Below, piece after piece: positions 1,591 through 22,637 of a stretch of DNA of 64,000 nucleotides (positions are counted from its first letter, which is position 1; each line of letters starts with the position of its first letter). Location of the stretch: positions 310,001 to 374,000 of the forward strand of contig NZ_FONZ01000001.1 of the NCBI RefSeq assembly GCF_900113055.1, given 5' to 3'. A model generated the notes under the pieces. The model had not been told where the DNA came from and did no database searches. It was given only the letters and a program-made list of their open reading frames with translations. This DNA is from Flavimobilis marinus (GTDB lineage Bacteria > Actinomycetota > Actinomycetes > Actinomycetales > Cellulomonadaceae). The position numbers and the translations under genes are program-made.

Positions 1591-3072
1591 ATGATGGGCG
1601 TCGTCGCTCCCGGAGCGAATGGTCCGATCGCCGGCTACGGCAAGCGCGTCGCCGCGATGCTGGTGGACTGGCTGCTCGCGAGCCTGGTCTTCTCCGTGTT
1701 CGCCGTGCCCGCGGTCCTGGTGCAGGCGGGGGCGAGCGCGGACCTGCAGATATCGCCGGCCTACCTGGTGCTCATGGCCCTCGCCTCGCTGGCGTCGTTC
1801 GCGCTGGTCCTGACGCAGGTGTGGCTCGAGGGCTCGCGGGGCTCGACCATCGGCAAGCGCCTGCTGAAGATCCGCACGGTGGACGCCACGAGCGCGCGAC
1901 CCGTCGGGTTCGGGCGGGCGTTCCTGCGTCAGCTGATCAAGGGCATTCTGTCGGCCGTGCTGCCGCTGCTCGCGCTGTCGCCGCTGTGGGACAAGACCGG
2001 GCGGCTTCGTGCCTGGCACGACAGCATCGCGGACACGGTCGTCCTGGACGGTCTCGCGGCAGGCGGCCAGCAGCGCCCGACCACCGCCTCGTTCGCCCCG
2101 CCGGCCCAGGACCGTCAGCCGCCGTTCGCCGTGCCCGGCGCACCGTCCCAGCCCGCCGCTGCCGTCGGCTACGGGGTGCAGCCGCCCGCGCCGGCGCCCG
2201 TGTCCGCGCCAGCCCCGGCGCCTGCTCCGTACGCGGCGCCCCGCCCCACCGCGGCGCCCCAGCTGCCCGACTACCTGCGCGACTCCGCGCCGCAGGGCGG
2301 GCGGCCACCGCACGCGAGCGAGCTCGGGGCCTACCGGGCGGCTCCCGAGCTTCCCGCGCACGGGGTGCCCGCGCCTCCGGTGTCGGCGCCCACGCCGGCC
2401 GCGGCTCCTCCCGTGCCCCCCGCACCCGCCCCTGCGCGGGCTGCCGTGCCCGCGCCTCCCGCGGCCGCGCTGCACCCGCCTGCACCGCGCCCGGCCGAGG
2501 CCGCCGCACCGGCCGAGCGCGCGGCGTCGGGCGTCATCACGGCGGTGCCGGGCTTCGGCCCCGCTCGCGCCGAGCAGCCGCACCAGAAGGCCCCGGTCGC
2601 GCCGCGTGCCCCCGAGCGTGCGCACGCGCCGATGCCGGAGCTCGAGGACGACCTCGACATGACCCGCCTCAAGCCGGTGCAGACGCAGGAGCCGGCCGCG
2701 CCGCCCGCGCCTGAGGAGGTCGAGGCGGAGATCCCCCCGTCGGCGCTGCTGCGGCTGTCCGACGGTCAGGAGATGACGGTCACCGAGACGGTCCTCATCG
2801 GGCGGAACCCGTCCACGAGCGACGGCGAGACGGTCGGCGAGCTGTTCCGCGTCCCGGACCCGGGGCGTTCGGTGTCCAAGACGCACCTGCTCGTGGGCGT
2901 CGACGACGAGGGCGTGTGGGTCGTGGACCGGGCGTCGACCAACGGCACCATCGTCACGCTGTCCGACGGGCAGCAGATCATCTGCGCCCCGCACCAGGTG
3001 GTCCGGCTGCCCGACGGCGCGGCGGTCGGGTTCGGCGACTACAGCGTCACGTTCGAGTACCGGAACAGCTGA
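1591..3072 (+). CDS. RDD-family membrane protein with C-terminal FHA domain
   Basis: A 493-residue protein in three parts. An RDD membrane domain (about residues 12-150, starting YGKRVAAMLVDWLLA) has two or three helices. A Pro/Ala-rich linker (about 155-380) follows. The C-terminal FHA domain (387-493) shows GRNPSTS, SVSKTH and STNGT, the phosphothreonine-binding landmarks. The ATG at 1591 is preferred over upstream GTG/ATG codons because GGAGGGG sits 7 nt before it. Thr358 lies in an acidic context (LEDDLDMTRL) just before the FHA domain and resembles motifs in the next two genes. As first gene of the cluster it probably recruits phosphorylated partners to the membrane; that role is inference. 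The RDD domain's own function is not known to me. Confidence 0.82.
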   Translation: MMGVVAPGANGPIAGYGKRVAAMLVDWLLASLVFSVFAVPAVLVQAGASADLQISPAYLVLMALASLASFALVLTQVWLEGSRGSTIGKRLLKIRTVDATSARPVGFGRAFLRQLIKGILSAVLPLLALSPLWDKTGRLRAWHDSIADTVVLDGLAAGGQQRPTTASFAPPAQDRQPPFAVPGAPSQPAAAVGYGVQPPAPAPVSAPAPAPAPYAAPRPTAAPQLPDYLRDSAPQGGRPPHASELGAYRAAPELPAHGVPAPPVSAPTPAAAPPVPPAPAPARAAVPAPPAAALHPPAPRPAEAAAPAERAASGVITAVPGFGPARAEQPHQKAPVAPRAPERAHAPMPELEDDLDMTRLKPVQTQEPAAPPAPEEVEAEIPPSALLRLSDGQEMTVTETVLIGRNPSTSDGETVGELFRVPDPGRSVSKTHLLVGVDDEGVWVVDRASTNGTIVTLSDGQQIICAPHQVVRLPDGAAVGFGDYSVTFEYRNS

Positions 3073-3083
3073 GGGGCGCGGAC

Positions 3084-4001
3084 GTGCGGACACTGTGGGG
3101 ATCGGCGACGGATCGCGGCCGCGTGCGGTCGTTGAACGAGGACTCGCTGCTCGCCTACCCACCGGTGTTCCTCGTGGCCGACGGCATGGGCGGGCACGAC
3201 GCCGGCGACGTCGCGAGCCGCCTCGTGGTGGAGGAGTTCTCGTTCCTCGTCGGCCACGACGGCGCGACCAGCGACGACGTGCACGCCTGCTTCGAGCGTG
3301 CGTCCGCGCGCATGCGGGACATCCTGGGGGACCGCACGGCAGGGACCACCGTCGCAGGTGTCGCGGTGACCGCGACCGACAACGGCGAGTACTGGCTCGT
3401 GTTCAACATCGGCGACTCGCGGGTCTACCGCGTGAGCGAGGGCGTGCTCGAGCAGATCTCCGTGGACCACTCCGTCGTGCAGGAGCTCGTCGACTCGGGC
3501 GACCTCGCCCTGGCGGACGCGCGCATCCACCCCGAGCGGCACGTGATCACCCGCGCCGTGGGCACGGGTGGCGTGCCGGACCCGGACTACTGGCTCATCC
3601 CCGCCTCCGCCGAGGACCGGCTGCTCGTGTGCTCCGACGGGCTCACGACCGAGCTGGACGACGCGACGCTCCTGCACGGCCTCACGGCGTTCGCCGACCC
3701 CCAGCAGTCCGCGGACTGGCTGGTGGGCGCCGCCGTGGACGCGGGCGGGCGGGACAACGTCACGGTGATCGTCGTGGACGTCGCCGCCGCGTGGGGCGAG
3801 CTGTCGGCGGAGGAGACCATCACGCGGGGGACCGCCACGGCAGCGCGCATACCGCGCAAGGGCCCCGACGGCGCCCCCTGGGACGAGGAGCTGCACGGCG
3901 AGACCGTCCCGCGCGAGGACCGGGCGGCACCGACCGCGCCGACGCCCGCTGCCCGCAGAGCCATGCCCCCGGTGCCCCCGCCGCCCGCGGAGGTGTCGTG
4001 A
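3084..4001 (+). CDS. PP2C-family Ser/Thr protein phosphatase
   Basis: A 305-residue metal-dependent phosphatase that removes phosphate from Ser/Thr residues. It has the N-terminal RVRSLNEDS motif, VADGMGGH (metal-binding Asp33), a SDGLTTEL motif and GGRDNVTVIVVD (Asp224). The GTG at 3084 is chosen because GAGGGGCG lies just upstream and the catalytic domain begins at once; longer in-frame extensions would run into the preceding gene. The C-terminal tail is not catalytic and contains WDEELHGETVP (Thr274), almost the same word as one duplicated in the following FHA protein. It is the natural antagonist of the kinase two genes downstream. Its stop overlaps the next ATG by one base. No transmembrane segment is seen. 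Confidence 0.87.
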   Translation: MRTLWGSATDRGRVRSLNEDSLLAYPPVFLVADGMGGHDAGDVASRLVVEEFSFLVGHDGATSDDVHACFERASARMRDILGDRTAGTTVAGVAVTATDNGEYWLVFNIGDSRVYRVSEGVLEQISVDHSVVQELVDSGDLALADARIHPERHVITRAVGTGGVPDPDYWLIPASAEDRLLVCSDGLTTELDDATLLHGLTAFADPQQSADWLVGAAVDAGGRDNVTVIVVDVAAAWGELSAEETITRGTATAARIPRKGPDGAPWDEELHGETVPREDRAAPTAPTPAARRAMPPVPPPPAEVS

Positions 4002-5215
4002 TGATCGTCCCCCACTACAGCCCCGGGGCATGGTTCGCCGTCGTCACCGACGGCGTGATCGCCCTGCTGCCCCCGGACACCCTGCCCGCCGTCGTCGAGC
4101 TCGTCTGGGAGGCGGCTCGGGAGGACGCCGCCTTCGAGGACCAGCTGTCGCTGCTGACGTCGGGCCGCAGCACGGGCAAGGCCCCGTTCGCGCTCGTGTC
4201 GCTCGCGGGCGGCGACGTGCGCGCGGCGGTCCGCGGCGACCTGGAGGTTGTCCTCGAGGAGAGCATCGGTGCGCCCCCGCGCCGGGTCGTGGGCGACCAG
4301 ATCCCGTGGACCAGCGTGGCCGCCTCGGCGACGGCCGTGAGCGTCGGCGTGGTCGGCGCGAGCTCTCGGGGCCCCGCGCTGCCCGTGCTGTCCGGCGTCG
4401 TGACCGCGTGCGAGGTCATCGTCACCCTGCGTGAGGCGGACGACGACGTCGCAGACGTCGCCACGCGCTCAGGCGCGGAGGTCGTGGAGTTCGACGAGGA
4501 GCTCGACGGCGTCACGATCCTCTCGCCCCGGCGCGCGGCAGCCGCCGAGGTCGTGGAGTTCGACGAGGAGCTCCACGGCGCCACCATCCTCACGCCGCGG
4601 CGCGCGGCAGCACCCGGCGCCCGGACGCCGGCCTCGCCCGCGACGGGCTCGACCGTCCCCACCGCGGCGACGCCGCTCGCTCCGCCGCCCTTGCCGACGC
4701 CGCCACCTGCGCCGCCAGCCCGGCCCGCGCCCGTGCAGGCGAGCGCGTTCATGCCGGCGCTCGACGACCACGACGGGCTGACGGTGATGAGCTCGGACCT
4801 CGTCGAGATCCGCCGCCAGCTGCCCACGTGGTCCACCAACGAGGTCCCCGGCCCGTTCACCATGCCGACCCTGGTCGCGCCGCCCAAGCTCGTCATGTCG
4901 TCGGGGGTCACCGTCACGCTCGACCGCACGGTGCTGATCGGGCGCGCTCCCGTCGTCTCGCGCGTGTCCAACCGGGACCTGCCGCGCCTGGTGACGGTCG
5001 AGAGCCCCAACCACGACATCTCGCGCACCCACGCGCAGGTGCGCGCCGAGGGCGACCGCGTCCTGCTCACCGACCTCGACTCGACCAACGGCGTCACGCT
5101 CAGCCTGCGCGGGCGGCCCGCCGAGCGGATCCGTCCCGGTGTCGCGGTGGACGTGCCCCCGGACGCGACGGTGGACCTCGGCGACGGCGTCATGTTCCGG
5201 GTGGTGCGGAGCTGA
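4001..5215 (+). CDS. FHA-domain protein with duplicated acidic Thr motif
   Basis: A 404-residue protein that I take as cytoplasmic, since no signal peptide or membrane helix is evident. The N-terminal about 150 residues form an unrecognised globular region (starting MIVPHYSPGAWFAVVTDG). A 23-residue unit is then repeated twice (EVVEFDEELDGVTILSPRR and a near copy), giving Thr172 and Thr195, followed by a Pro-rich linker and a further acidic Thr site, Thr261 (LDDHDGLTVM). An FHA domain occupies about residues 298-404, with LIGR, SRTHA and STNGV landmarks. The ATG overlaps the phosphatase stop and the TGA overlaps the kinase ATG, so translation is coupled. It is probably a kinase substrate and phospho-dependent adaptor. 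The binding partner is not readable from sequence. Confidence 0.8.
   Translation: MIVPHYSPGAWFAVVTDGVIALLPPDTLPAVVELVWEAAREDAAFEDQLSLLTSGRSTGKAPFALVSLAGGDVRAAVRGDLEVVLEESIGAPPRRVVGDQIPWTSVAASATAVSVGVVGASSRGPALPVLSGVVTACEVIVTLREADDDVADVATRSGAEVVEFDEELDGVTILSPRRAAAAEVVEFDEELHGATILTPRRAAAPGARTPASPATGSTVPTAATPLAPPPLPTPPPAPPARPAPVQASAFMPALDDHDGLTVMSSDLVEIRRQLPTWSTNEVPGPFTMPTLVAPPKLVMSSGVTVTLDRTVLIGRAPVVSRVSNRDLPRLVTVESPNHDISRTHAQVRAEGDRVLLTDLDSTNGVTLSLRGRPAERIRPGVAVDVPPDATVDLGDGVMFRVVRS
4478..4615 (+). repeat. In-frame 69-bp tandem duplication encoding the acidic Thr motif
   Basis: Two adjacent 69-base units (4478-4546 and 4547-4615) encode 23 residues each. The protein copies differ at only a few positions (D/H, V/A, S/T and the last residue), while FDEEL, TIL and PRRAAA are kept. 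This indicates a duplication under selection for the motif rather than random drift. Confidence 0.85.
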
Positions 5216-6756
5216 TGCGCGCTCGTCGCGAGCCGTCCACGCCTCCCACGATCCCCGGCTTCCAGTACGTGCGTGTGCTCGGCCTGGGTGGGTTCGCCGA
5301 CGTCTTCGAGTACCGCCAGGAGCTGCCGCAGCGGTCGGTCGCGGTCAAGGTGCTGCTCGCGAGCTCGCTCGACCCGGAGACGCGGGACAGGTTCTTCGCC
5401 GAGGCCAACCTGATGGCCCAGCTCTCGCACCACCCGTCGATCGTCACGATCTACCACGCCGACATCGCCACGGACGGTCGCCCGTTCCTGGTGATGGAGT
5501 ACTGCTCCCGCCCTGGGCTCGGCGCGCGGTACCGCTCGGAGCGGATCACCGTCGCCGAGGCGCTGCGCACGGGCATCCGCCTGGCGTCGGCCGTCGAGGC
5601 CGCGCACCGCCTCGGGATCCTGCACCGCGACATCAAGCCGGCGAACATCCTCACCACGGACTACGGCTGGCCGGCCCTGACGGACTTCGGCATCGCGGCG
5701 ACGACGGGCGGCGACGGCGCTGCCGGGACCGGCATGTCGATCCCGTGGTCCCCGCCCGAGCTCCTCGCCGAGCACCCCACGGGCGACCGGCGCGGCGACG
5801 TGTACTCGCTCGGCGCGACCATCTACTCCATGCTCGCGGGGCGCTCGCCGTTCGAGATCGCGGGCCAGTCGAACGGCCCGGCCGACCTCATCTCCCGGAT
5901 CGAGCGGGTGCCGCTGCCGGCGATCGACCGCAGCGACGTCCCCGCCGGCCTGCAGGCGCTGCTCGCGCGCTGCATGACCAAGGAGCCGGCGCGCCGCTAC
6001 GACTCCGCCCTCGCCGTCGCGCGGGCGCTCCAGCAGGTCGAGCGCTCGCTCGGTCTCACGGAGACGGGCATCGACCTGTCCGAGGACCTGGTCGAGCGGG
6101 TGACGCCACGCACGCCGAGCCCGGCTCCGAGCGGCGAGGGGGAGTCGACGCGGCTCCGGCCGATCGTGAGCATCGAGGCGCAACCGACGACTGTTCCCGC
6201 GTCCGCGGGCGCCGGCGCGACCCGGGTGCCGGCGCCGACGCCCGTGCGTGCGCCGGGGTACGTCGTGCCACCGCCGATGCCGACCTCCGCGCCCTCGAGC
6301 GCGCCGAGCGCGGACCCTGCGCCGTCGGTGCCGCGGCGCCGCGGCGGTACCCTCGCTGCCGTGCTGGCCAGCGTCGTCGTGATCGGCGCCCTCGTCCTGG
6401 TCGCCGCGCTCACCCTCGGCCGCGGGCCGGAGGACAACCCGACGCCCACGCCGACGGCGACGGCACCCGTGACGAGCACCCCCCAGCGGTCCGTCCCGGC
6501 GCCCACCAACCTGCTCGGCTCGCCGCAGGTGGGAGAGCTGGTGCGGTTCCAGTGGACGAACCCGGAACCGATGGAGGGCGACACGTACCGTTGGCAGATC
6601 ATCGATGTGGGCGTCGAGACTGCACCGGAGTCGGTCGACGTACCCTATGTCGACGTCGCTGCCCCTCCTGAGGGCGAGAGGCTCTGCATCGAGGTATCGA
6701 TCGTGCGCAGCGACAGGAGGCTGTCGAACCAACCCGCGGAGGTGTGCTACCCGTGA
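5215..6756 (+). CDS. Transmembrane Ser/Thr protein kinase (PknB-like) with small ectodomain
   Basis: A 513-residue receptor-type kinase. The catalytic domain (about residues 14-290) has the Gly loop GLGGFADV, catalytic Lys45, HRDIKPAN (Asp139) and DFG (Asp157), and a SIPWSPPE activation segment. A Pro/Ala-rich linker precedes one membrane helix (about 377-402, GTLAAVLASVVVIGALVL). The exported C-terminal about 110 residues look Fn3-like, with two cysteines, rather than PASTA. It starts in a TGATG overlap with the FHA gene and its stop overlaps the giant protein's GTG. It probably phosphorylates the FHA and phosphatase proteins upstream. The last about 150 bases use more A/T-ending codons (for example GTA, TAT, CCT, AGG) than the kinase domain, suggesting a diversifying ectodomain. 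Confidence 0.88.
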   Translation: MRARREPSTPPTIPGFQYVRVLGLGGFADVFEYRQELPQRSVAVKVLLASSLDPETRDRFFAEANLMAQLSHHPSIVTIYHADIATDGRPFLVMEYCSRPGLGARYRSERITVAEALRTGIRLASAVEAAHRLGILHRDIKPANILTTDYGWPALTDFGIAATTGGDGAAGTGMSIPWSPPELLAEHPTGDRRGDVYSLGATIYSMLAGRSPFEIAGQSNGPADLISRIERVPLPAIDRSDVPAGLQALLARCMTKEPARRYDSALAVARALQQVERSLGLTETGIDLSEDLVERVTPRTPSPAPSGEGESTRLRPIVSIEAQPTTVPASAGAGATRVPAPTPVRAPGYVVPPPMPTSAPSSAPSADPAPSVPRRRGGTLAAVLASVVVIGALVLVAALTLGRGPEDNPTPTPTATAPVTSTPQRSVPAPTNLLGSPQVGELVRFQWTNPEPMEGDTYRWQIIDVGVETAPESVDVPYVDVAAPPEGERLCIEVSIVRSDRRLSNQPAEVCYP

Positions 6757-9700
6757 CGTCCCGCAGGATGGCGCGCGACGCCCGGCAGATCGACCGAGCT
6801 GCCGGGGCGAACCGTCGTCGTACCTGGACGACGGTCGGGGCCGCCACGCTGGTGCCGGTCCTCCTCGCGGTGCTCGCGATCATCAACCCGGGCGTCAAGG
6901 TCTCGCAGGTGGACCTCAACGACGGCTCCGTGTGGCTGACGAACAAGGCGCAGCAGAAGCTCGGCCGGTTCAACTCCCAGATCGGTGAGCTCGACGGTGG
7001 GCTCGCGTCCGAGCCGGCCCTCGACGTGCTGCAGGCCGGCTCTGACGTGCTGCTGCTCGAGAACGGCAAGGTCACCGTGGTGGACCCGGCCTCGGTCTCC
7101 GCGACGACGCAGCTGTCGTTGCCGGCCGGTGCCAAGGTCGCGATGGCGGCCGGGACCGTCGCGGTGACGAGCGCCGACGGCGAGGTGTGGGTCAGCGCCT
7201 TCGACCAGCTCGACTCCCTGGCCCTCGAGCCGGAGACGGCGACGCTCACGGTCGGTGCGGGCGCCGTCTCGGCGATCACCACCGACGGCGCGGTGCTCAC
7301 CTTCGATCCCACGACGGGGAAGGCGCACCGCACCGAGATCGCCACGGGGGCTCCGGTGACGACGGTCGGTGCGCAGGTTGCCCCGGCGGGCACGGCCGTC
7401 ACGCAGGCCACGGCGGTCGGCGACGACCTCGTGGTCCTCGGCGTCGGGATGCTCTACGGCGAGGGCTGGCAGACGCGCGTGGGCAACCCCGCCGACGTGG
7501 TCATGCTCCAGCACAGCGGGGCCGCGAACGACGAGGTCCTGGTGTCGACGCCCGCCGCGCTCCTGGGCGTCTCGCTCGACGGGGGCTCGGTCGAGACCGT
7601 GCAGGACGGCTTCAGCGGCGTGCCGGCGGCCCCGGTGCGGGTGGGCTCGTGCGAGTTCGGCGCGTGGGCGACGTCCGGCCAGAACTACGTGCGCCGGTGC
7701 GGGCAGGAAGCCCCACAGGTGGCGACCGACCCCGACATCTCCGCCTCCGACGAGCTGGTCTTCAGGGTCAACCGTTCCGTCGTCGTGCTCAACGACGTCA
7801 CCGACGGGCGCCTGTGGCTGCTGGCCGAGATCCCGCAGGTGTTCGAGCCCAACTGGACGGACATCAAGTCCCAGGAGGAGCTCGACGAGTCGGACGAGCC
7901 GTCGGACGAGGTCGAGACCACGCAGAACCTGCTCGAAGAGTGCTCGGAGGCCGCCTCCGCACCGACGGCGCAGGACGACGCGATCGGCGTGCGCCCGGGG
8001 CGGACCACCATCCTGTCGGTCCTCAACAACGACAACTCCGCCGAGTGCGGCATCATCGCGATCTCGCAGTTCGACGCGATCTCGCCCGACTTCGGCCGTG
8101 TGGAGTCGGTCTACGGCGGACGCGCGCTGCAGCTCACGACCGCGGCGGGTGCGAGCGGCGAGCAGTCCTTCACCTACACGATCACCGACGGCCGTGGCCT
8201 GGACGCGCCGTCGACCGCGACGGTGCGCCTGCGCGTGCGGGACGAGGCGCTCAACGACCCGCCCGAGCAGGTGCGCACGAGCGCCGTCGAGGTGGAGGTC
8301 GGTGCGTCGGTGACGTACAACGCTCTGGCCGACTTCGTGGACCCCGACGGCGACGACCTGATGCTCGTCGGAGCGCGCACGGACGGCGCGGGCACCGTCC
8401 GCACCCGCCCGGACGGCAAGCTGACCTTCCTCGCTGACGGCGAGCAGCTCGGTCGCCAGGCCGTGACGGTCCAGGTCTCGGACGGCCGGGAGACGGTCGA
8501 GGGCAGGCTCAACGTGGACGTGCGGCCGGCCGGGTCGCTCGCTCCCGTGATCGACCCGATCCACCAGGTCGCCTACGTGGGCCAGACGATCGACGTCAAC
8601 GTCCTCGCCGGGGTGCGCAGCGCCTCGCGGGAGCCGGTGCGGCTCGCCGGCGTGGAGGCGGTCGACGGCACGACGGTCGAGCCGGACCTCGCGGCGGGCA
8701 CCTTCAAGTTCACCGGGTCGCGGGTGGGCACCTACTACCTTCCGTTCCTCGTGACCGCGACGCCGCAGCAGGCGACCGGGCTCGCGCGGATCGACGTCGT
8801 CGAGCGCCCGTCGGAGGCGCTGCCGCCGGTCGCCGTGCGGGACATGGCCCTGCTGCCGCCCGGCGGCGAGGTCACGATCGACCCGCTGGCCAACGACACG
8901 GACCCCAACGGCGGGGTGCTGGTGCTCGTCTCGGCCCAGACCGAGGACGGCTCCCGGCTCCAGGTCGGTGTTCTGAACCACCGCCTGCTCCGCATCTCCT
9001 CGCAGCGCGCGCTCGAGGGCCCCGAGATCGTCACGTACGTGGTGTCGAACGGTGTGGCGGAGACCAGCGGCGAGGTCGTGGTGCAGCCGACGACGGTGAG
9101 CGAGACTCAGCGGCCGCCGGTCGTGCAGGACGTCGAGGTCTCGGTCCGGACCGGCGGTGTGGTGACGATCCCGGTGCTCGAGACCGCGTATGACCCCGAC
9201 GGCGATACGATCACGCTCGAGCGCGAGCTCGTCGAGCCGGCCTCGGCCGGGCTGATGTTCGTCTCGGGCGACGTGCTGCGGTTCCAGGCGCCCGCGGAGG
9301 CGGGCACCGCGCGGGCGACCTTCGCGGTCAGCGACGAGTTCGGCAACGTCTCGTCGGCGCAGGTCACGGTCTCGGTGCACGAGTCCGACCCCACCACGAA
9401 GGAGCCGGCGCGCCCGGTCGACCTCACCGCCCGTGTGTTCTCCGGAGAGACGGTGCGCATCACGGTGCCGCTGATCGGGATCGACGACGACGGCGACGGT
9501 GTCTCTCTGCTCGGCCAGGCGACCGCGCCCACGAAGGGCCGGATCGTCGCGGTGGGCGCCGACTACCTGGAGTACGAGTCGTTCCCCGGGGAGACGGGAA
9601 CCGACGAGTTCCAGTACGCGGTCGAGGACTGGGTGGGCCAGCGCTCGGTCGCGAACGTCCGCGTCGGGATCGCGGCGCGGCCCACGGAGCCGCAGCCGAT

Positions 9701-12700
9701 CATCGCGCGCAACGACGAGGTCACCGTCCCGCCCGGCCAGCGCGTCGAGGTGCGGGTCCTGGCCAACGACATCGAGGCCTCGGGGGACGAGCTGTCGATC
9801 GTCGAGCCGCTCCAGGTCCCGCCGGGCCTGCAGGCCTCGGTCGAGGGCAGGCGGATCGTCGTCACGACCCCGAGCTCCGAGGGCGTGCTCCAGATTCCAT
9901 ACTCCGCGCAGAACGCGCGTGGCGCGCGGGCGTCCGCGGTCCTCACGGTCAACGTGGTGTCCGGCGCAGTCATCCAGCCGCCGATCGCCCGCGACGTCGT
10001 CGTGCCGCCCCTGGAGACGCTCAACAAGACGTCCGTCGACGTCGACGTGCTGGCGGTCGCGGAGAACCCCTCCGGCCCGCTCAGCGACCTCGAGGTTCGG
10101 GTGCCGTCGTCGCACGCGGGCGTCGCCGTGGTCGGCGCGAACCGTCGCGTCACCGTGACGCTGGGCGAGACCGCGCGGACGGTGCCGTTCGAGATCGTGA
10201 ACACCCACCCCGACGCTGAGGGCGCCTCCGCGTTCGCGTTCATCACGGTCCCCGCGCTCGGAGACTTCCCGCCGGTGCTACGGCCGAACGCGCGCGAGCT
10301 GCGGGTCGCCTCCGGGGAAGAGCTGGTGATCTCGCTCGAGGAGTTCGTCCAGGTGGGTCCGGGCAAGACGGCGCGGGTGACGGACGCGGAGTACGTCTCG
10401 GCCACGCGGTCGGACGGCACCGAGCTCGTGGTCGACGAGACAACGCTGCGGTACGCGTCCGAGGCCCAGTACGCCGGGCCTGCCTCCATCACCTTCGAGG
10501 TGACCGACGGCATCTCTCGTGAGGACGCCAACGGTCGGCTCAAGACGCTCACGCTCCCGATCACGGTGTACGCGACCGAGGACTATCCGCCCACCTTCGC
10601 CCCGACCGTGGTCGAGGTGCCGCAGGGCGGCAGCCCCGTCGTCGTCGACCTGCTCGCGCTGACCCAGGGGCCCGAGGGCGCCGAGGCCGGCCCGGCGCAG
10701 TACGCCTACAGCCTCACCACGGCGGTGCCCAACGGGTTCTCGGTGGGGCTCGAGGGCACGCTGCTCTCGATCTCCGCAGCGGCGACGACGGCGCGCGGCA
10801 CGGTCGGCTCGATCGGTCTGGCCATCGGCTACGGGGTGTCGGGCTCGCTGCCGGCGACCTTGGACTTCCGCGCGACCGCGAGCGACCGGCAGGTCGCTCA
10901 GGTGCGCGACTTCACCATCGCCGACGGCGTGAGCGGTGAGTCGCGGCCCGTCGAGGTGCTCGCGGGCTCGTTCAACCCGTTCCCGGAGACGCCGCTGCGG
11001 GTCCTCGGCGCGACGGTCGAGACCCCGAACTCGGGCACGGCGTCCGTGGAGGGCGCGCGCGTCGTCGTGCGGCCCGTCGAGAACTACGTCGGCACGATGG
11101 TGGTGCGGTACCTCGTCGTGGACGCCACCGGTGAGCCCGGCCGCGAGGTCGAGGGCCGGATCACCCTGACGGTGCGCGGCCTGCCGGGCACGCCGTCGAC
11201 GCCCACGGAGCGAGGCATCCGGGACCGGACCGTCGTGCTCGCGTGGGACGCCCCTGCGGCGAACGGCGAGCCCATCGACTACTACGAGGTCGTCCGCTCC
11301 CCGGGCGGTGACGTCACCCGGTGCGCGAGCACCACCTGCACCATCGACGATCTCCAGAACGACGTCGAGTACTCCTTCACCGTGCGGGCGCACAACGCCG
11401 TCGGCTTCGGTGAGTCGAGCGCGCCGTCGCCCACCTACCGGCCCGACGCCGTGCCCGAGCGGCCGAGCGCGCCCACGCTGAAGTTCGGCGACCGCGAGAT
11501 CGACGCGACGTGGCCGGTGCCGCCGAGCCCTGGCTCGCCGGTCAGCGAGTACACCGTCGAGATCAGCCCGGCTCCGTCGGCCGGCGCCGCCTCCGTCACG
11601 ACGTCGTCCCCGCGGCACACCTTCCGCGGGCTGACCAACGGCACGGCGTACACGGTGCGCGTGCGGGCGCACAACCGCGCGCCGGACCCGAGCGAGTGGA
11701 GCCCGATGTCCGTGCCGGAGACCCCGGCGGCGGTGCCTGGAGCCCCCACGGTCGAGGCGAGCCGGGTCGACACCCCGTTGGGTGGCCAGATCCAGCTGAC
11801 GTGGACCGCCGGCCCCGACAACGGGGCTGAGGTGAAGAAGTACTGGATGGCCGTGAGCGGGGGCGGGACCTCGTTCGAGCGGGAGATCGGCGGCGAGCGG
11901 ACCTCGTGGTCGTTCACCGAGGCCAAGAACGGGGTGGACTACACGTTCTCGCTGCGTGCCGAGAACAAGGCCGGGCGGTCGCAGGCCGGGACGGCACGCT
12001 CGATGACCTGGGGGACGCCGGGGGAGATCCGGGACGCCAGCGCGAACGACGCGGCGGCGCCCGACACGGCGTTCGGCAAGGGCCGCGTGGAGTACACCTG
12101 GCGCGCGCCCGCTGACATGGGCGGCTTCCCCGTCGACAGGTACGAGATGGACGGCCAGGGCTCGATCGGGACCAGCCCCAGCTATACCCAGCGCGACCTG
12201 CCCGGGGGCGAGCCGGCACCGCGCCCCAAGGTCCGCGCGTGCAACGAGCACGTGTGCGGTCCGTGGACGACGCTCCCGTCGGCGACGCCGACGACGGTGC
12301 CGCAGGCGCCTGCGGTTACCGGCGGCCCGCTCTCGTGGCGCGAGTTCGAGTTCTCCTTCTCGGCTCGCAACACCGGAGGTTCGGCGATCAAGGGCTACCG
12401 CTACCGCGTTGATGCCGAGTATGGCGGTGGAACCGACGGTTGGGTCCCCGCCAAGGATCCGAAGTCGAACGAGAAGTACGAACTGCGGTTCGGCGGGCCG
12501 ACCACGATCTCGGTGCAGGCGGAGAACGAGCGTGGGTGGAGCGCCGTAGCAACGACGTCGTTCGTCGTGCGGAGCCCCACCGCTCCCGACGCACCGCGTG
12601 TGGTGGCCGAGTCGCCGGACTGGAACAAGCTCCGCTGGCGCTGGGACGCGGTCACTGGTGAAGCCACGGGTGGAGCGACGATCACCAAGTACGAATACCG

Positions 12701-13208
12701 CGTGCAGCGCAACCGAGAGACGATTCTCGACTGGCGTGAGGGGAACCCGGACACCTGGTACACCGGTGCTGACGCCGGTGTGGACGTGCAGGGCGATGCC
12801 GAGTACCGGGTGGAGGTGCGTGCGACCAACGACGCACCCAACAGAGATGGGTCTCGAGGCAAGACGAGCGACGCTGGCCAGGCCACGGCTTCCGTTTTCC
12901 GGCCACCACTTCCAGGCCGGCCTACGGTGGACATCGACGCGCTTGCCGCCGACTCGGTGACCTTCACGTGGGCCAACGGCGACGACCACGGGTTCGAGAC
13001 AACCTACGAGTATCGGATCAACGTCGGGCGCGACGAAGGCGACTGGACGAGCGTTACCGAACGCACGGTGACCCAGCGGATTGATGCCCGCGAGGACGAT
13101 TGGGTGGTTGTCCAAGTGCGCGCCTCCAACACGCGGCGTCCGGGAGAGCACTCAGAGACGGGTAGTGCGGAGCAGCGGGTGCCCCGCGACGACTCCGAGG
13201 ACCCCTGA
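6753..13208 (+). CDS. Giant membrane-anchored Ig/cadherin-like and Fn3 repeat protein
   Basis: A 2151-residue surface protein. A basic N-terminus and one membrane helix (about residues 26-45) are followed by an exported propeller-like segment (about 50-400) with four cysteines. A long series of Ig/cadherin-like repeats of about 95 residues comes next (about 400-1470, with recurring DPDGD and ANDTDPNGG calcium-type motifs). About seven Fn3-like repeats form the C-terminal part (about 1476-2140, with recurring YEV, YTVRVRAHN). There is no LPXTG or other sorting signal, so it is anchored by the N-terminal helix. The GTG at 6753 (GTGA overlap, GGAGGTG 8 nt upstream) is preferred. The last about 800 bases have clearly more A/T-ending codons than the rest. 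It may be an adhesin, a structural stalk or the substrate of the downstream machinery; I cannot decide. Confidence 0.85.
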   Translation: MTSRRMARDARQIDRAAGANRRRTWTTVGAATLVPVLLAVLAIINPGVKVSQVDLNDGSVWLTNKAQQKLGRFNSQIGELDGGLASEPALDVLQAGSDVLLLENGKVTVVDPASVSATTQLSLPAGAKVAMAAGTVAVTSADGEVWVSAFDQLDSLALEPETATLTVGAGAVSAITTDGAVLTFDPTTGKAHRTEIATGAPVTTVGAQVAPAGTAVTQATAVGDDLVVLGVGMLYGEGWQTRVGNPADVVMLQHSGAANDEVLVSTPAALLGVSLDGGSVETVQDGFSGVPAAPVRVGSCEFGAWATSGQNYVRRCGQEAPQVATDPDISASDELVFRVNRSVVVLNDVTDGRLWLLAEIPQVFEPNWTDIKSQEELDESDEPSDEVETTQNLLEECSEAASAPTAQDDAIGVRPGRTTILSVLNNDNSAECGIIAISQFDAISPDFGRVESVYGGRALQLTTAAGASGEQSFTYTITDGRGLDAPSTATVRLRVRDEALNDPPEQVRTSAVEVEVGASVTYNALADFVDPDGDDLMLVGARTDGAGTVRTRPDGKLTFLADGEQLGRQAVTVQVSDGRETVEGRLNVDVRPAGSLAPVIDPIHQVAYVGQTIDVNVLAGVRSASREPVRLAGVEAVDGTTVEPDLAAGTFKFTGSRVGTYYLPFLVTATPQQATGLARIDVVERPSEALPPVAVRDMALLPPGGEVTIDPLANDTDPNGGVLVLVSAQTEDGSRLQVGVLNHRLLRISSQRALEGPEIVTYVVSNGVAETSGEVVVQPTTVSETQRPPVVQDVEVSVRTGGVVTIPVLETAYDPDGDTITLERELVEPASAGLMFVSGDVLRFQAPAEAGTARATFAVSDEFGNVSSAQVTVSVHESDPTTKEPARPVDLTARVFSGETVRITVPLIGIDDDGDGVSLLGQATAPTKGRIVAVGADYLEYESFPGETGTDEFQYAVEDWVGQRSVANVRVGIAARPTEPQPIIARNDEVTVPPGQRVEVRVLANDIEASGDELSIVEPLQVPPGLQASVEGRRIVVTTPSSEGVLQIPYSAQNARGARASAVLTVNVVSGAVIQPPIARDVVVPPLETLNKTSVDVDVLAVAENPSGPLSDLEVRVPSSHAGVAVVGANRRVTVTLGETARTVPFEIVNTHPDAEGASAFAFITVPALGDFPPVLRPNARELRVASGEELVISLEEFVQVGPGKTARVTDAEYVSATRSDGTELVVDETTLRYASEAQYAGPASITFEVTDGISREDANGRLKTLTLPITVYATEDYPPTFAPTVVEVPQGGSPVVVDLLALTQGPEGAEAGPAQYAYSLTTAVPNGFSVGLEGTLLSISAAATTARGTVGSIGLAIGYGVSGSLPATLDFRATASDRQVAQVRDFTIADGVSGESRPVEVLAGSFNPFPETPLRVLGATVETPNSGTASVEGARVVVRPVENYVGTMVVRYLVVDATGEPGREVEGRITLTVRGLPGTPSTPTERGIRDRTVVLAWDAPAANGEPIDYYEVVRSPGGDVTRCASTTCTIDDLQNDVEYSFTVRAHNAVGFGESSAPSPTYRPDAVPERPSAPTLKFGDREIDATWPVPPSPGSPVSEYTVEISPAPSAGAASVTTSSPRHTFRGLTNGTAYTVRVRAHNRAPDPSEWSPMSVPETPAAVPGAPTVEASRVDTPLGGQIQLTWTAGPDNGAEVKKYWMAVSGGGTSFEREIGGERTSWSFTEAKNGVDYTFSLRAENKAGRSQAGTARSMTWGTPGEIRDASANDAAAPDTAFGKGRVEYTWRAPADMGGFPVDRYEMDGQGSIGTSPSYTQRDLPGGEPAPRPKVRACNEHVCGPWTTLPSATPTTVPQAPAVTGGPLSWREFEFSFSARNTGGSAIKGYRYRVDAEYGGGTDGWVPAKDPKSNEKYELRFGGPTTISVQAENERGWSAVATTSFVVRSPTAPDAPRVVAESPDWNKLRWRWDAVTGEATGGATITKYEYRVQRNRETILDWREGNPDTWYTGADAGVDVQGDAEYRVEVRATNDAPNRDGSRGKTSDAGQATASVFRPPLPGRPTVDIDALAADSVTFTWANGDDHGFETTYEYRINVGRDEGDWTSVTERTVTQRIDAREDDWVVVQVRASNTRRPGEHSETGSAEQRVPRDDSEDP

Positions 13209-13264
13209 CCGCGTACGATTCGCCCGTCCCTCTGCATCGCCCCTGACGAGAGAGCACGCACACC

Positions 13265-14227
13265 ATGACTCCTGAACAGACCGCGTGGTTCGCGGAGACC
13301 TTCGGCGCCCTCGTGGCCAACGTGGGCAAGGCGGTGCTCGGCAAGCCGCACACCATCCGCCTCGCGTTCACCGCGATGCTGGCCGAGGGGCACCTGCTGC
13401 TCGAGGACGCACCCGGGACCGGCAAGACGTCGCTCGCACGTGCGCTCGCCGCGACCGTCCAGGGCACGCACAACCGCATCCAGTTCACGCCGGACCTCCT
13501 GCCGTCGGACGTCACGGGCGTGACGATCTACGACCAGGGCAGCGGGCGCTTCGAGTTCCACAAGGGCCCGATCTTCGCGTCGATCGTCCTCGCGGACGAG
13601 ATCAACCGTGCGTCGCCCAAGACGCAGTCGGCTCTCCTCGAGGTCATGGAGGAGTCCCACGTGACCGTCGACGGCGTCACCCACTCGGCGGGACGACCGT
13701 TCATGGTCATCGCGACGCAGAACCCCATCGAGCAGGCCGGCACCTACAAGCTGCCCGAGGCGCAGCTCGACCGCTTCCTCATCAAGACGTCGATCGGCTA
13801 CCCCGACCACGCGTCGACCGTCGAGATCCTCGCCGGGTCGGCCGAGCGCGACCGCTCCTCGCACCTCACGCCGCTCATCACCACCGACGCGATCGGCGAC
13901 ATGGCGGACATGGCCGCCGGCGTGCACGTGGATGCCGCGGTGCTCGACTACGTCTCCCGGCTCGCCGAGGCCACGCGCTCCGACCCCCAGACCCGCCTCG
14001 GCGTCAGCGTCCGCGGCTGCATCGCGCTCGTGCGCTGCGCCAAGGTGTGGGCCGCCGCCCAGGGCCGCGCGTTCGTCATCCCCGACGACATCAAGGAGCT
14101 CGCCGAGCCCGTCCTCGCGCACCGCCTGATGCTCGACGTCGAGGCCGAGTTCGCCGGCGTCACCAACTCCGAGGTGCTCGAGAACGTCCTCAGCGTCACG
14201 GCCCCGCCGGTGGAGCGAGTCGCCTGA
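13265..14227 (+). CDS. MoxR-family AAA+ ATPase
   Basis: A 320-residue ATPase of the MoxR group, chaperone-like AAA+ proteins that usually pair with DUF58 (and often VWA) proteins. It shows Walker [10 protein letters not shown] (Lys54), Walker B LADEIN (Asp111-Glu112), a sensor-1 segment [12 protein letters not shown] and a C-terminal lid domain. Length is typical. The start is the ATG at 13265, 56 nt after the giant gene's stop; the ribosome site is weak (GAGAGAGC). Next is the DUF58 gene after a single base, the classic MoxR-DUF58-transglutaminase order. The substrate is unknown; assembly or remodelling of the surface or secretion complex is an inference. Confidence 0.88.
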
Positions 14228-14228
14228 C

Positions 14229-15479
14229 ATGAGCACGGGGGCGAAGGCCGCAGGCGCGGCCGCGGTGGCGAGCGCGCGCGGGTTCGCGGGTGGGCTGTGG
14301 CGTGCGCTGCTGCCCCTGCGGCGCGCTGCCGCCCACGTGTCCCCGCTCGGCTGGCTGACCGTCGCCACGATGGTCGGCGCCCTCCTGGCGGGGCGCCGCT
14401 ACGGCTGGGACGAGCTCGTGGTGCTGGGCTGCGCTCTCGCCGGCGTGCTCGTCTTCGCCGTGCTCCTGACGTTCGGCCGGTCCACCTACGCGGTCGACCT
14501 CGACCTCGCCGACCACCGCGTCGTCGTCGGCCAGCGGGCGCTCGGCCGGATCGCTGTGACCAACGTCGGGCGCGGCCGGCTCCTGCCGGCGCAGATCGAG
14601 CTGCCGGTCGGCGCCGGCTCCGCCAACTTCGACCTCCCGTCCATGGCCGCCGGGGCCGTGCACGAGGAAGTCTTCGCCGTGCCCACGGCCCGCCGCGCGA
14701 TCGTCACCGTCGGTCCCGTCCTGTCCGTGCGGGGCGACGCCCTCGGGCTGGTGCGCCGCCAGGTGCGCTGGACGAACCCCGAACAGCTCTACATCCACCC
14801 CCTCACGGTCTCCCTCGCGTCAGCGCGCACCGGCGTCATGCGGGACCTCGAGGGCGAGGCCACCCGCGTGCTGTCGGAGAACGACATGTCGTTCCACGCC
14901 CTGCGCGAGTACGTGCCCGGCGACGACCGCCGCAACATCCACTGGCGCACCTCGGCGCGCATCGGCCAGCTCATGGTCCGCCAGTTCGAGGACACCCGCC
15001 GCACGCACACCGCCCTCGCCCTCGCCGACCGCGCGGAGGACTACCGCGACGAGGACGAGTTCGAGTTCGCGGTCAGCATCTACGCCTCCCTCGGCGTCCA
15101 GGTGATCCGCGACGGCCTCGAGGTCACCGCCATGTGCGGCCCGCGCGTGCTGCGCTCCCAGACGCCTCCGCGCCTGCTCGACGACTGCGCGGGCCTCGAG
15201 ATCGCCGCGCCCGGCACCGGCGACGGCCAGACGCTTGCGCAGCACGTCGCTCGTCAGGTTCCGCACGCGTCGATGGCGCTCATCGTCACCGGGGGTGCCG
15301 CCGGACCCCAGGACCTGCGGGCGTCCGCGATCCACATCCCCGCGGGCGTGCGCACGATCTTCCTGGCCTGCTCGCCCGGAGCCGAGCTGGGCCTGCAGAC
15401 CTCGGGCATGCTCTCGACCGCGACGATCGGCCGCGGGCAGGACCTGCCGCGCCTCGTGAGCCGGCTGGTGACCGGATGA
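14229..15479 (+). CDS. DUF58 domain protein
   Basis: A 416-residue protein with two N-terminal membrane helices (about residues 36-80) followed by a beta-rich region and the DUF58 core, whose signature [12 protein letters not shown] and [13 protein letters not shown] lies near residues 225-255. DUF58 proteins almost always accompany MoxR ATPases and transglutaminase-like membrane proteins, as here. The ATG at 14229 follows the MoxR stop by one base, and the stop forms an ATGA overlap with the next gene, so these are translationally coupled. The biochemical function is unknown; related proteins bear VWA-like folds. Confidence 0.85.
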
Positions 15480-17881
15480 TCGACGAGCACACCTCAGGCG
15501 GCGGACGCCGCCGCATCCGCACCGTCACGTCCAACCAGCGCTCCGGCGGAGCGCTGCGCCGGCGGTTGTTCGACGTCGGCGTGCTCACCCTCGCCGTCGC
15601 GCTCGCCGTGGTCGCCGTCGTCCCCGCCTACGGGCCTGTCGCCGCCGTCCCGCTCGTCGCTGGAGCGCTCCTGGGCGCCGCCGTCGTGCTCGTCACGCGC
15701 GCGTGGTCGTGGTCGCCCCTGGTCGCCACCGCCCTGACGATCGCCGTCTACCTGCTCGTCGGGCCCGCCGTCGCGGTGCCCGACCTCGCCGCCGCACGCG
15801 TGCTGCCGAGCGTCGACGCGCTCGTCGCACTGCTGCAGGGCGTCGTCACCGCGTGGAAGGAGATGCTCACCCTCGAGCCTCCGCTCGGAGCGGTCGACAA
15901 CCTGCTGGTCGTCCCGTTCGTCATGGCCCTCGGCGGCACCGTCGCCGCCGGGATGCTCGGCACCGACCGCGAGGCCGCCGCCGGGGCGCGCGCCTGGCAC
16001 GCCCAGTCCGGCGCCGGCAACGGACCCGGGCGCCGGATCCAGCTGCGGACGTTCGCCGCCGCCGCCGTGCCGGCGGTCCTGCTCGTCGCGGCCATCCTCC
16101 TCGGCACGGTCGAGGCACCCCTCGCCACCGTCGTCGGCGTCGCCATGGCCGTGCTCCTGCTGCCGTGGCTGGCCTGGCGCTGGCGCACCTGGCACCCCCG
16201 CCGCGTCGTCACGCTCGCCCTCATGGCGGCGGTCGCGGCGTCCAGCGGGGTGTTCGCGGCGCCCGTGCTCGGCGGCGACGAGCCCCGCACGGTGCTGCGC
16301 CACGACATCGTGCCGCCGTTCGACCCGCGCGACCAGCCCAGCCCGCTGGCCGCCTTCCGCAAGTTCATCAAGGACGAGAAAGACACCGAGCTGTTCACGG
16401 TGCACGGGCTGCCGGAGAACACCCCGGTGCGGCTCGCCACGATGGACGCCTTCGACGGCGTGGTGTGGAACGTCGCGGACAGCGGCACGGCCGAAGGGTC
16501 GGGTGCGTTCCGCCGCGTCGGCGAGCGCATCCCCACGACCGTGAGCGGCACCCGTGCGGAGATCGAGATCGAGATCCAGGGCCTCGACGGCATCTGGCTG
16601 CCGACCGTCGGGCAGGCCACCGGGGTCGACTTCGCCGGCCGCGAGAGCCGGGCCCAGGAAGCGGCGTTCCGCTTCAACGACGCCACGGGCGCCGCCGTTC
16701 TGCCCGAGGGGCTGAGCGCGGGCGACCGGTACGTCCTCGACGCCGTGGTCCCCCCGGTCCCCGACGACGCCGCGCTCGGCAGCGCGCAGGTGGGGCGGAT
16801 CGACCTCCCCGACCCCCTGCGGGTCCCGGACGCGGTGGGCACCAAGGCCGCGGACATCGCGAGCAGCGCCACGACGCCCGCCCTCGTCGCCCGGGCCCTC
16901 GAGGCCACGCTCGCCCAGACCGGCTGGTTCAGCCACGGCATCGCCGAGTCCAACGACTACCCGTCCCTGTCCGGCCACGGTGCCTGGCGCATTAACGAGC
17001 TGCTCACCGCGACGCCGATGGTCGGGGACAGCGAGCAGTACGCCTCGGCGATGGCGCTCATGGCACGCCACCTGGGCCTGCCGTCCCGCGTGGTGCTCGG
17101 GTTCGTCGCCGGCGAGGACACGCCCACCACGGGCGACGGTGGGCGCGTCTTCCGGGGCGACGACATCCAGGCATGGGTGGAGGTCGCGTACGTCGGCTAC
17201 GGCTGGGTGCCGTACTTCCCGACGCCGCCCGAGACGAAGACGCCCAGCGAGGAGATGACCGAGGAGGAGTCCCAGCCGCAGCCGCAGGTCGTGCAGCCGC
17301 CGCCCGCGCCGGAGGACCCGGTCGAGCCGCCGGACGCCGACACCGAGGACCCGGACGTCGACGCAGACGAGGAGGACCCCGAGACCGGCGTCGACTACCT
17401 GCGCGTCGTGCTGCTCACCGCGGCGGTCGCGATCCCGATCCTGCTCCTCGTGCTCCCGCCGCTGCTGATCCTCGCGGCGAAGGCCCGGCGGCGTCGTCGT
17501 CGTCGCGCGGCACCGTCGCCGCTCGCCCGCGCGACGGGAGCGTGGGACGAGGTCGTCGACGTCGCACGCGACCACGAGCACGAGCTCTCGCCCCTGGCCA
17601 CGCGCCGGGAGAACGCCCGCGCGCTGGCCGCGGCGTATCCCGCGGCGCCCGCGCTGGCGATCGCCGACCGGGCGGACGCCGCGGTGTTCGCACCCGGCCT
17701 GCCAGACGAAGCCGACGTGGAGGCGCTCTGGACCGAGGTCGACGTGGCCGTCGGAGCGATCCGGCACGGAGGTTCCCGCTGGGCACGGCTGCGCGGGCGC
17801 CTGTCCGTCGCCTCGTTGCGCGAGCGACGCGCCGAGCGCAAGGGCGGACGCAAGGGCCGGCGCAGGGGCGGGCGCCGGTGA
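15476..17881 (+). CDS. Polytopic transglutaminase-like protein lacking the catalytic triad
   Basis: An 801-residue protein of the TgpA-like architecture. It has several N-terminal membrane helices (about residues 35-260), a large exported domain (about 270-590), one more helix (about 640-670) and a basic cytoplasmic tail. The transglutaminase core is clear ([19 protein letters not shown] and [13 protein letters not shown]). However, the positions of the usual Cys, His and Asp read Ser519 (VGDSEQYA), Gln565 (DDIQAWVEV) and Phe581 (VPYFPTP). It is therefore probably a non-enzymatic binding fold. The start is the ATG in the ATGA overlap with DUF58, and the stop overlaps the ATPase GTG. Between MoxR-DUF58 and the EssC-like motor it may be a structural or substrate-holding component. 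Confidence 0.83.
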
Positions 17882-22242: not shown

Positions 22243-22279
22243 TCCCTGTGGACAACGGCTCGTGGGCCGATCGTCTGGC

Positions 22280-22285
22280 TAGCGT
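22280..22285 (+). promoter_or_regulatory. -10-like element before the WXG100 gene
   Basis: TAGCGT in the 104-nt gap between the ATPase and the WXG100 gene fits TANNNT. It would allow separate, higher expression of the small secreted protein with a leader of about 55 nt. No clear -35 is seen at a normal distance. Read-through from the cluster is also possible. Confidence 0.25.
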
Positions 22286-22346
22286 GAAGCGTGACAAGCC
22301 CGCCGGCCGCTCCGGCCCGCGGGCCACCACGAGATGGGGGATCCAC

Positions 22347-22637
22347 ATGGCGAACGTGAACGTTTCTTACGACGAGATGCGCTCGGCCGCTGACCGGCTG
22401 GTGGCCGGGCAGGGCGACATCACCGCAAAGCTGACCGAGCTCAAGGGCTACATCGGCACGCTGATCGGCTCCGGGTTCGTCACCGACCAGGCGTCGGTGG
22501 CGTTCGGTGAGACGTACGGGGAGTTCACGACGAACTCCACCCAGCTGATCAGCAACCTCACCGACCTCGGGGGCTACCTGCGCAAGGCTGCCCAGACGCT
22601 GCAGGAGACCGACGCCGCGCTCGCGGGAGGCCTGTGA
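22347..22637 (+). CDS. WXG100-family (ESAT-6-like) protein
   Basis: A 96-residue helical protein, the usual size for WXG100 secreted substrates. Two amphipathic helices flank a central turn. The canonical Trp-x-Gly is replaced: the turn reads SGFVTDQAS (about residues 42-50), with Phe44 in the aromatic position. The C-terminal YLRKAAQTLQETDAAL helix is typical of the family. A YxxxD/E-like secretion signal (YLRKA) is not exact. The ATG at 22347 has a G-rich ribosome site (GATGGGGG). Position directly after the EssC-like motor supports the assignment as its substrate or partner. Only one WXG100 gene is present, so it probably acts as a homodimer. Confidence 0.82.
   Translation: MANVNVSYDEMRSAADRLVAGQGDITAKLTELKGYIGTLIGSGFVTDQASVAFGETYGEFTTNSTQLISNLTDLGGYLRKAAQTLQETDAALAGGL

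Follow-up and report, generated by a model that had tools for sequence, protein, structure and literature searches.

In a window of 64,000 nucleotides from the 2.9-Mb genome of Flavimobilis marinus (contig NZ_FONZ01000001.1, positions 310,001 to 374,000), a gene cassette encodes, in this order, a membrane protein with an RDD and an FHA domain (RDD-FHA), a PP2C-type phosphatase, a second FHA-domain protein (hereafter the FHA protein), a PknB-like Ser/Thr kinase, an Fn3/tandem-95 protein, a MoxR ATPase, a DUF58 protein, a transglutaminase, an FHA-FtsK/EssC-like ATPase, and a WXG100-like protein. Short acidic peptides centred on a threonine recur in the linkers and tails of the first four proteins, and because orthologues keep these Thr sites while the surrounding linkers vary, we consider the sites to be under selection. 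Judged from sequence, these peptides probably serve as short linear phosphothreonine motifs within a kinase-phosphatase-FHA module that is complete in itself. Their reading as phospho-motifs is well supported, and the FHA domains are their likely readers. In contrast to related systems, the proteins that carry the candidate tags are themselves the presumed writer and eraser, together with the adaptors (Table 1).

The five Thr peptides of the original prediction, at residue 274 of the PP2C, 172, 195, and 261 of the FHA protein, and 358 of RDD-FHA, are all exact; the kinase-tail site at Thr312 was absent from it. The idea that these peptides form one shared linear motif survives in part, as they are Thr-specific, conserved, and shared by the set of kinase, phosphatase, and FHA proteins, but a single motif had to be rejected in favour of at least two classes, DGxT[VI]/TxPR and an acidic stretch followed by TR[LMV]. 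The RDD-FHA site LEDDLDMTRL belongs to the latter class and finds its best partner in the kinase tail (EGESTRLRP). Thr172 and Thr195 do not count as independent sites, because both are copies of one 69-bp tandem duplication. A codon pattern for DEEL[HDNY]G has only three matches in the genome, all in the genes for the PP2C (tail) and the FHA protein (linker), with none on the reverse strand and none for the pattern written backwards, and at the DNA level the PP2C site resembles those of the FHA protein over 28 nt (79–86%).

To count such sites we used a rule that was drafted after the window sites were known, requiring at least two D/E at positions −6 to −2 of a Thr, V/I/L/R at +1, and P/L/M/I/V at +2. 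The four cassette proteins contain seven such sites compared to a mean of 1.30 in shuffled sequences, and seven were reached in 1 of 5000 shuffles (P = 0.0002); one of the seven, T195 of the PP2C, lies inside the folded domain. When each protein is considered on its own, the FHA protein (P = 0.0098) and the PP2C (P = 0.041) are unusual, and RDD-FHA (P = 0.13) and the kinase (P = 0.31) are not.

Conservation was assessed in a set of orthologues made up of 39 regions and 80 named loci, the best of 361 candidates, mostly from Cellulomonadaceae; the FHA-protein search had given a match in 42 of 59 genomes, the window genome counted. Eight loci duplicating others in the set were dropped before counting, regions that the regular expressions could not delimit are excluded from n (leaving 63 kinase regions for the rule and 106 open reading frames (ORFs) for the kinase-site count), and related loci are non-independent samples. 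TxPR with at least two acidic residues in the preceding eight is present in 89 of 100 PP2C tails (superseding the 94 found by a looser expression), and its Ser version in none. The variants include WDEELHGETVPR, WDEMLDGATVPR, DEDTLPR, and DDDTRPR, and P276 and R277 are close to invariant in 24 aligned PP2Cs. The FHA protein carries DHDGxT[VI] in 86/105 cases, within the consensus DHDGxT[VI][LM]SSDLVxIR, and D258 and T261 are near-invariant among 22 aligned orthologues whose linker is otherwise gap-rich. The kinase tail has the acidic TR[LVIMF]R site or a near variant in 96 of 106 ORFs. For RDD-FHA, a TR[LMVFI] site was seen by eye in 20 of the 26 ORFs scoring at least 300 bits, a count that contains the window, its nearest relative (L033), and two weak sites and from which one extra match was discarded as FHA-domain sequence. 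The PP2C tail has a second recurring Thr cluster (3807–3827), which reads ETITRG in the window, EDVHITVPR in Cellulomonas loci, and STTPRD in loci of the type VII secretion system (T7SS) type.

The conserved residue is strictly a threonine: with strict anchors, Thr is found in 84/84 FHA proteins (21 loci lack the anchor) and 66/66 PP2Cs (34 lack it). Leaving out the window and L033, rule-sites occur in 67 of 98 PP2C tails (shuffled mean 4.5, maximum 13), 92 of 103 FHA linkers (16.7, maximum 24), and 51 of 63 kinase tails (7.3, maximum 13), and in the T7SS-type loci alone in 15/16, 13/15, and 4/6, respectively. A Ser-centred rule matches 0 PP2C tails, 12 FHA linkers, and 1 kinase tail, in each case fewer than in shuffles (means 2.7, 17.2, and 4.7), and the mirrored rule is low for PP2C (3/98) and FHA linkers (15/103). 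Elsewhere in the loci, the Thr rule stays at or below shuffles for the transglutaminase (13 vs. 16.9) and MoxR (6 vs. 6.2), and the housekeeping PP2C of the same genome has a single rule match and no TxPR tail. In anchored profiles, the FHA core (−5 to +3) reaches 2.5–5.3 bits vs. 0.1–1.0 at −25 to −7, the PP2C core up to 4.0 bits vs. 0.3–0.7 downstream, and the kinase TRLR 2.9–4.0 bits vs. 0.2–0.6 at −25 to −6. The Thr follows the PP2C fold after 11 to 46 residues, and 50 to 142 separate the FHA core from the DHDGxT site. A short conserved core is thus embedded in a disordered linker of variable length, as is typical of phospho-linear motifs, and the expectation that the motif would be conserved while linkers vary is borne out by the orthologue alignment.

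The sites also extend beyond one type of cluster, contrary to the initial view that they are cluster-specific. The cassette is common to two cluster types, with either the Fn3-MoxR-DUF58-transglutaminase set, as in the window, or an EssC-type ATPase, and the motif recurs in the T7SS-type clusters and in other families. Besides f1, seven families (f5, f6, f8, f11, f12, f13, and f19) keep the PP2C site, which was counted in 32 of 36 cases by eye; the regular expression gave 33, including a spurious string (DDTDVTGPS) in L044. A phylum-wide sample gave matches in 24 of 396 genomes, and 13 regions were fetched, in eight of which a PP2C was found; all of these eight but L205, L207, and L209 belong to the order. 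Six of the eight PP2C tails carry TxPR (L201, L202, L203, L206, L207, and L208). DHDGxT is present in four of the five FHA linkers compared (L201, L202, L203, and L206, all of one family), with EEATVDR in L208, and the kinase tails read TRVR in L201, L202, and L208 and TRAR in L203. In most T7SS-type loci (e.g. L049, L051, L058, L064, and L065), the FHA protein has YxHLWGxTVMRxVEDAAVR as a further conserved element, as well as a zinc-ribbon-like segment (CxxGHxNPP..CxxCG) directly before the FHA domain.

The enzymes and binding domains that a phosphothreonine module would need look intact in sequence. The catalytic motifs of the kinase are present, and the residue following DFG is Ile in all 104 parsed orthologues; a beta-branched residue at this position confers a preference for Thr (PMC3898841). 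In PknA-dependent sites of Mycobacterium tuberculosis, positions −3 to −6 are rich in acidic residues and +2 is Pro (PMC7164672), a pattern with which the PP2C tail agrees, so that the proposed fit to actinobacterial kinase preference holds for the acidic context. In the kinase (5215–6756) and its orthologues, the activation segment closes with an unusual conserved G[MLV]S[IVL]PW[SAT][PA]PE, with no fixed Thr pattern ahead of it. In the PP2C, D20, D33, D185, and D224 are invariant among 24 aligned sequences. The FHA fold of the FHA protein is recognized by Pfam and by VIA structure comparison (Z 14.9 with 3gqs, root-mean-square deviation (rmsd) 1.3, 92 aligned; Z 13.6 with 3po8, rmsd 1.7, 92 aligned), R315, S341, R342, H344, and N363 are invariant in 22 aligned sequences, and the phosphothreonine pocket SRxH..NG is found in 108 of 111. 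The RDD-FHA pocket, S[KR]xH, is present in 35 of 36 loci after removal of duplicates (40/41 with them).

Evidence on which FHA domain reads which site comes from three sister genomes (L044, L137, and L140), in which neither TxPR in the PP2C tail nor DHDGxT in the FHA linker is seen by eye. At the place of RDD-FHA, they encode a counterpart without the RDD domain in which the pocket Lys/Arg is replaced (SLTH, STTH, and SSTH, SLTH being the one exception among the 36 pockets), while the kinase TRVRP site and the SRTH pocket of the FHA protein itself are retained. The residue after the pocket Ser forms part of the phosphopeptide pocket of DgcB (S75 and R76; PMC6733907). Because the loss of the sites coincides with that of the pocket and the RDD domain in this clade, RDD-FHA may tentatively be assigned as the reader of the DGxT[VI] class, and the kinase tail would have a different reader, perhaps the FHA protein. 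The original prediction had all three FHA domains of the cluster reading the motif; this clade, which provides the sole discriminating evidence, instead points to RDD-FHA and the DGxT[VI] class. A variant acidic site, T[IV]ERP, occurs in the FHA linkers of these three loci and in the PP2C tails of L046 and L130. The genome of L137 (G450) contains 17 FHA matches, several of them in apparent further clusters of the same kind (contigs C90, C101, and C147).

Several observations weigh against these interpretations. The joint loss is a single event, the missing RDD domain could reflect general gene decay, the FHA linkers of this clade retain an acidic DE[LM]TIERP site, and G450 has two further RDD proteins with an adjacent FHA domain in other clusters. 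Most related loci are from Cellulomonadaceae. In the phylum-wide sample, the PP2C of L205 has TTPP and that of L209 no site, and L205 and L207 have no kinase site. Moreover, L043 lacks the PP2C motif yet has the FHA-linker site, and in some loci the reverse is true. Using a looser expression for the FHA linker, Thr is found in 86 cases, Ser in one, and other residues in 12, with no match in six. The rule alone is not specific, as it exceeds shuffles in Fn3 (187 vs. 133.2), DUF58 (13 vs. 5.2), and EssC (27 vs. 16.9) proteins and matches 6 of 12 other ORFs of the genome that encode FHA, PP2C, or kinase proteins, a control set in which the L166 ORF was taken in the wrong frame; the PASTA kinase L162 alone has three rule matches as well as one match each to the TR and TxPR expressions. 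Finally, the mirrored rule matches 34 of 63 kinase tails, mostly owing to a separate segment, LP[VIL]TPLDLxD, which is the second recurring segment of the orthologue kinase tails. The TIERP site and the rule matches elsewhere slightly lowered our confidence, both in the phospho-motif module and in the more elaborate assembly code outlined below.

In the mechanism we propose, the membrane-anchored, Thr-preferring kinase (DFG followed by Ile) would phosphorylate its own tail at T312 (TRLR class), as well as the PP2C tail (T274), the linker of the FHA protein (T261, T172, and T195), and that of RDD-FHA (T358), and FHA domains would recognize these sites once phosphorylated. Anchored in the membrane by its RDD domain, RDD-FHA would bind the DGxT[VI] class and thereby draw the phosphatase and the putative pseudophosphatase-FHA protein to the membrane, leaving the FHA domain of the latter free for the TRLR tail of the kinase. 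By stripping phosphates, including its own, the PP2C would reset the complex. The output may be the neighbouring Fn3/MoxR/DUF58/transglutaminase set and, in related loci, a T7SS-type ATPase. Taken to its full extent, this would amount to a closed phosphothreonine assembly code, with tags from one writer on kinase, phosphatase, and two adaptors, two classes read by two FHA domains (DGxT[VI] tentatively by RDD-FHA and TRLR by the FHA protein), an assembly that phosphorylation keeps intact and the module's phosphatase dissolves, and a cassette that is interchangeable between PFNA- and T7SS-type machines of the Actinomycetota. This full version is possible, although we regard it as doubtful.

Alternatively, the Thr sites might be regulatory phosphosites or kinase-docking tags that feed back on the phosphatase and the kinase, with the FHA domains reading other phosphothreonines. 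The location of the motif on the enzymes themselves would fit this explanation, as would its residues, which are closer to kinase preference (acidic at −3, Pro at +2) than to the published FHA preference: the +3 residue is S/R/K, in contrast to the hydrophobic +3 of GarA/OdhI/DgcB ligands, a mismatch that also counts against FHA binding. Conversely, purely regulatory sites would not explain their joint loss with the RDD-FHA pocket, and the strict choice of Thr over Ser is what an FHA reader would demand, though the DFG+Ile kinase alone could account for it. On balance, we consider this alternative unlikely.

A phosphorylation-independent docking element is a rather remote alternative. Here, DHDGxT..SSDLVEIR would fold onto a partner, for instance the phosphatase or the pseudo-PP2C domain, with a structural role for the Thr such as that of a helix cap. 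In the FHA protein, conservation indeed extends past the Thr, including S, D, L, and R, to a W at +16, and the AlphaFold2 (AF2) model places a helix at residues 265–272 directly after T261, so that the helix into which DHDGxT continues may be the conserved feature, a further point against a phospho-motif. However, the PP2C and kinase sites have just the acidic-Thr core in common with it and no such downstream segment, and no Ser occurs at the strictly anchored positions. Chance likeness among acidic/Ala/Pro linkers of low complexity, or recently copied sequence shared by adjacent genes, as the modest single-protein P values, the T172/T195 tandem copy, the similar PP2C- and FHA-site DNA, and rule matches in other proteins might imply, is very improbable given orthologue counts far above shuffles, low Ser and mirrored controls for PP2C and FHA linkers, and a PP2C site that seven families other than f1 retain, and chance as a general explanation is ruled out by the orthologue counts, strict anchors, profiles, and PP2C tail counts.

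The putative pseudophosphatase of this model is the N-terminal domain of the FHA protein, which was modelled separately, as the VIA matches listed for the whole protein cover its FHA part only. Its structure matches RsbX (Z 10.9, rmsd 3.1, 134 aligned), PstP (10.5), the type VI secretion system (T6SS) phosphatase PppA (10.2), and RssB (9.0), the last of which we take to be an inactive PP2C domain, and by title nearly all matches listed are PP2C, SpoIIE, or RssB proteins. Foldseek gives a weaker signal (best E 1.8e-3, none at or below 0.001) and lists other folds as well from rank 15 on, and Pfam has no family for this domain. Among 17 orthologues, no Asp, the metal-binding residue of active phosphatases, is found in invariant or near-invariant columns, making activity unlikely; the domain is therefore probably an inactive PP2C-like fold, a pseudophosphatase at most, and together with the FHA domain the protein (4001–4435 plus FHA) represents a possible pseudophosphatase-FHA fusion. 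If so, the PP2C and the FHA protein may both consist of a PP2C-like fold followed by an acidic-Thr tail. The assumption that the motif-bearing proteins are unrelated is hence doubtful at the fold level, but it stands at the sequence level, where hhalign finds no homology between the N-terminal domain and the linked PP2C (probability 0.1).

Table 1. Threonine sites, domains, and genes of the cassette in the F. marinus window.
Feature	Position	Strand	Remarks
Thr358 site LEDDLDMTRL, RDD-FHA linker	2641..2670	+	TR[LMV] class
Candidate second PP2C tail site AEETITR (T245/T247)	3807..3827	+	orthologue versions AEDATITRG, VDDATVTRG, EDVHITVPR
Thr274 site WDEELHGETVPR, PP2C tail	3879..3914	+	DGxT[VI]/TxPR class
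69-bp tandem duplication holding T172 and T195	4470..4607	+	copies 90% identical
Thr172 site FDEELDGVTIL, FHA protein	4490..4522	+	position confirmed in translation
Thr195 site FDEELHGATIL, FHA protein	4559..4591	+	position confirmed in translation
Thr261 site DDHDGLTVMSSDLVEIR, FHA protein	4763..4813	+	most conserved element of linker; orthologue alignment, anchored profile
Thr312 site EGESTRLRP, kinase tail	6136..6162	+	ahead of hydrophobic segment
RDD-FHA membrane protein (P0001)	1591..3072	+	RDD residues 14-147, Pfam E 2.2e-18; FHA 403-482, 8e-6
PP2C-type phosphatase (P0002)	3084..4001	+	Pfam PP2C_2 3.3e-8; NF033484 5.8e-54, below cut-off
FHA protein (P0003)	4001..5215	+	Pfam FHA at 312-391; AF2 model
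N-terminal PP2C-like fold of FHA protein, probable pseudophosphatase domain	4001..4435	+	AF2 pLDDT (predicted local distance difference test) 89
FHA domain of FHA protein	4877..5212	+	AF2 pLDDT 82-95 in blocks of ten
PknB-like Ser/Thr kinase (P0004)	5215..6756	+	Pfam Pkinase 2.7e-38; one hydrophobic segment by eye
Large Fn3/tandem-95 repeat protein	6768..13208	+	NF012211 1.4e-34
MoxR-type AAA ATPase	13265..14227	+	AAA_3 6.1e-62
DUF58 protein	14229..15479	+	3.8e-11
Transglutaminase-like membrane protein (TgpA_N)	15476..17881	+	2.3e-16 and 8.2e-13
FHA-FtsK/SpoIIIE ATPase (EssC-like)	17878..22242	+	TIGR03928 484.7 bits, below cut-off 778.4
Third FHA domain, in FHA-FtsK ATPase	18220-18408	+	FHA 3.2e-12
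WXG100-like small protein	22347..22637	+	TIGR03930 43.5 bits vs. cut-off 44.85

The gene order of the cassette resembles that of the bifidobacterial PFNA operon (pkb2-fn3-aaa-atp-duf58-tgm, plus prpC and fha in some species), with a kinase, Fn3, MoxR, DUF58, and transglutaminase in the same succession and linked phosphatase and FHA genes (PMC8430577). In contrast to that operon, the RDD-FHA, PP2C, and FHA genes of the window lie upstream of the kinase and not after the transglutaminase, and the set continues with the FHA-FtsK ATPase and the WXG100-like protein (PMC8430577). The PFNA-like genes run straight into these two (13208–22637), coupling a PFNA-like to a T7SS-like set. T7SSd and other new T7SS subtypes likewise contain kinases, phosphatases, and FHA proteins, and their authors suggested control by Thr phosphorylation (PMC11217815). 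T7SSd has an FtsK-type ATPase with an N-terminal FHA domain (TsdC), a WXG100 protein (TsdA), and a kinase. The FHA-bearing ATPase and the WXG100-like protein of the window are candidate counterparts whose scores are both below their cut-offs. The main text of the subtype paper mentions neither Cellulomonas nor Micrococcales (PMC11217815). No paper naming these Thr motifs turned up in searches of open-licence PMC papers, and the text available from the PFNA and T7SS-subtype papers names no such motif or phosphosite (PMC8430577, PMC11217815). For these systems, known for their kinases, phosphatases, and FHA proteins, the motifs supply named candidate residues (T274, T261, T312, and T358, and their orthologues) and predict a pairing of FHA domains and tags, so that control of two surface or secretion systems becomes testable with few peptides.

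In the PFNA system, the kinase phosphorylates the MoxR protein (PMC8430577), and in the T6SS PpkA-PppA-Fha pathway it has been demonstrated experimentally that a phosphothreonine made by the cluster-encoded kinase is read by an FHA domain, activating the machine (PMC3953482). As in the window, kinase, PP2C phosphatase, and FHA protein are encoded in a single T6SS cluster (PMC3953482), but this is a different secretion system with TssL T14 as substrate, whereas in the window the candidate tags belong to the kinase and the phosphatase and to the FHA adaptors. The self-binding FHA proteins GarA/OdhI and DgcB also have a disordered tail with a conserved Thr beside the FHA domain (PMC6733907). Their sites have hydrophobic residues at +2 and +3, as opposed to L/M/P at +2 and S/R at +3 in the window, where the sites are distributed over several proteins (PMC6733907).

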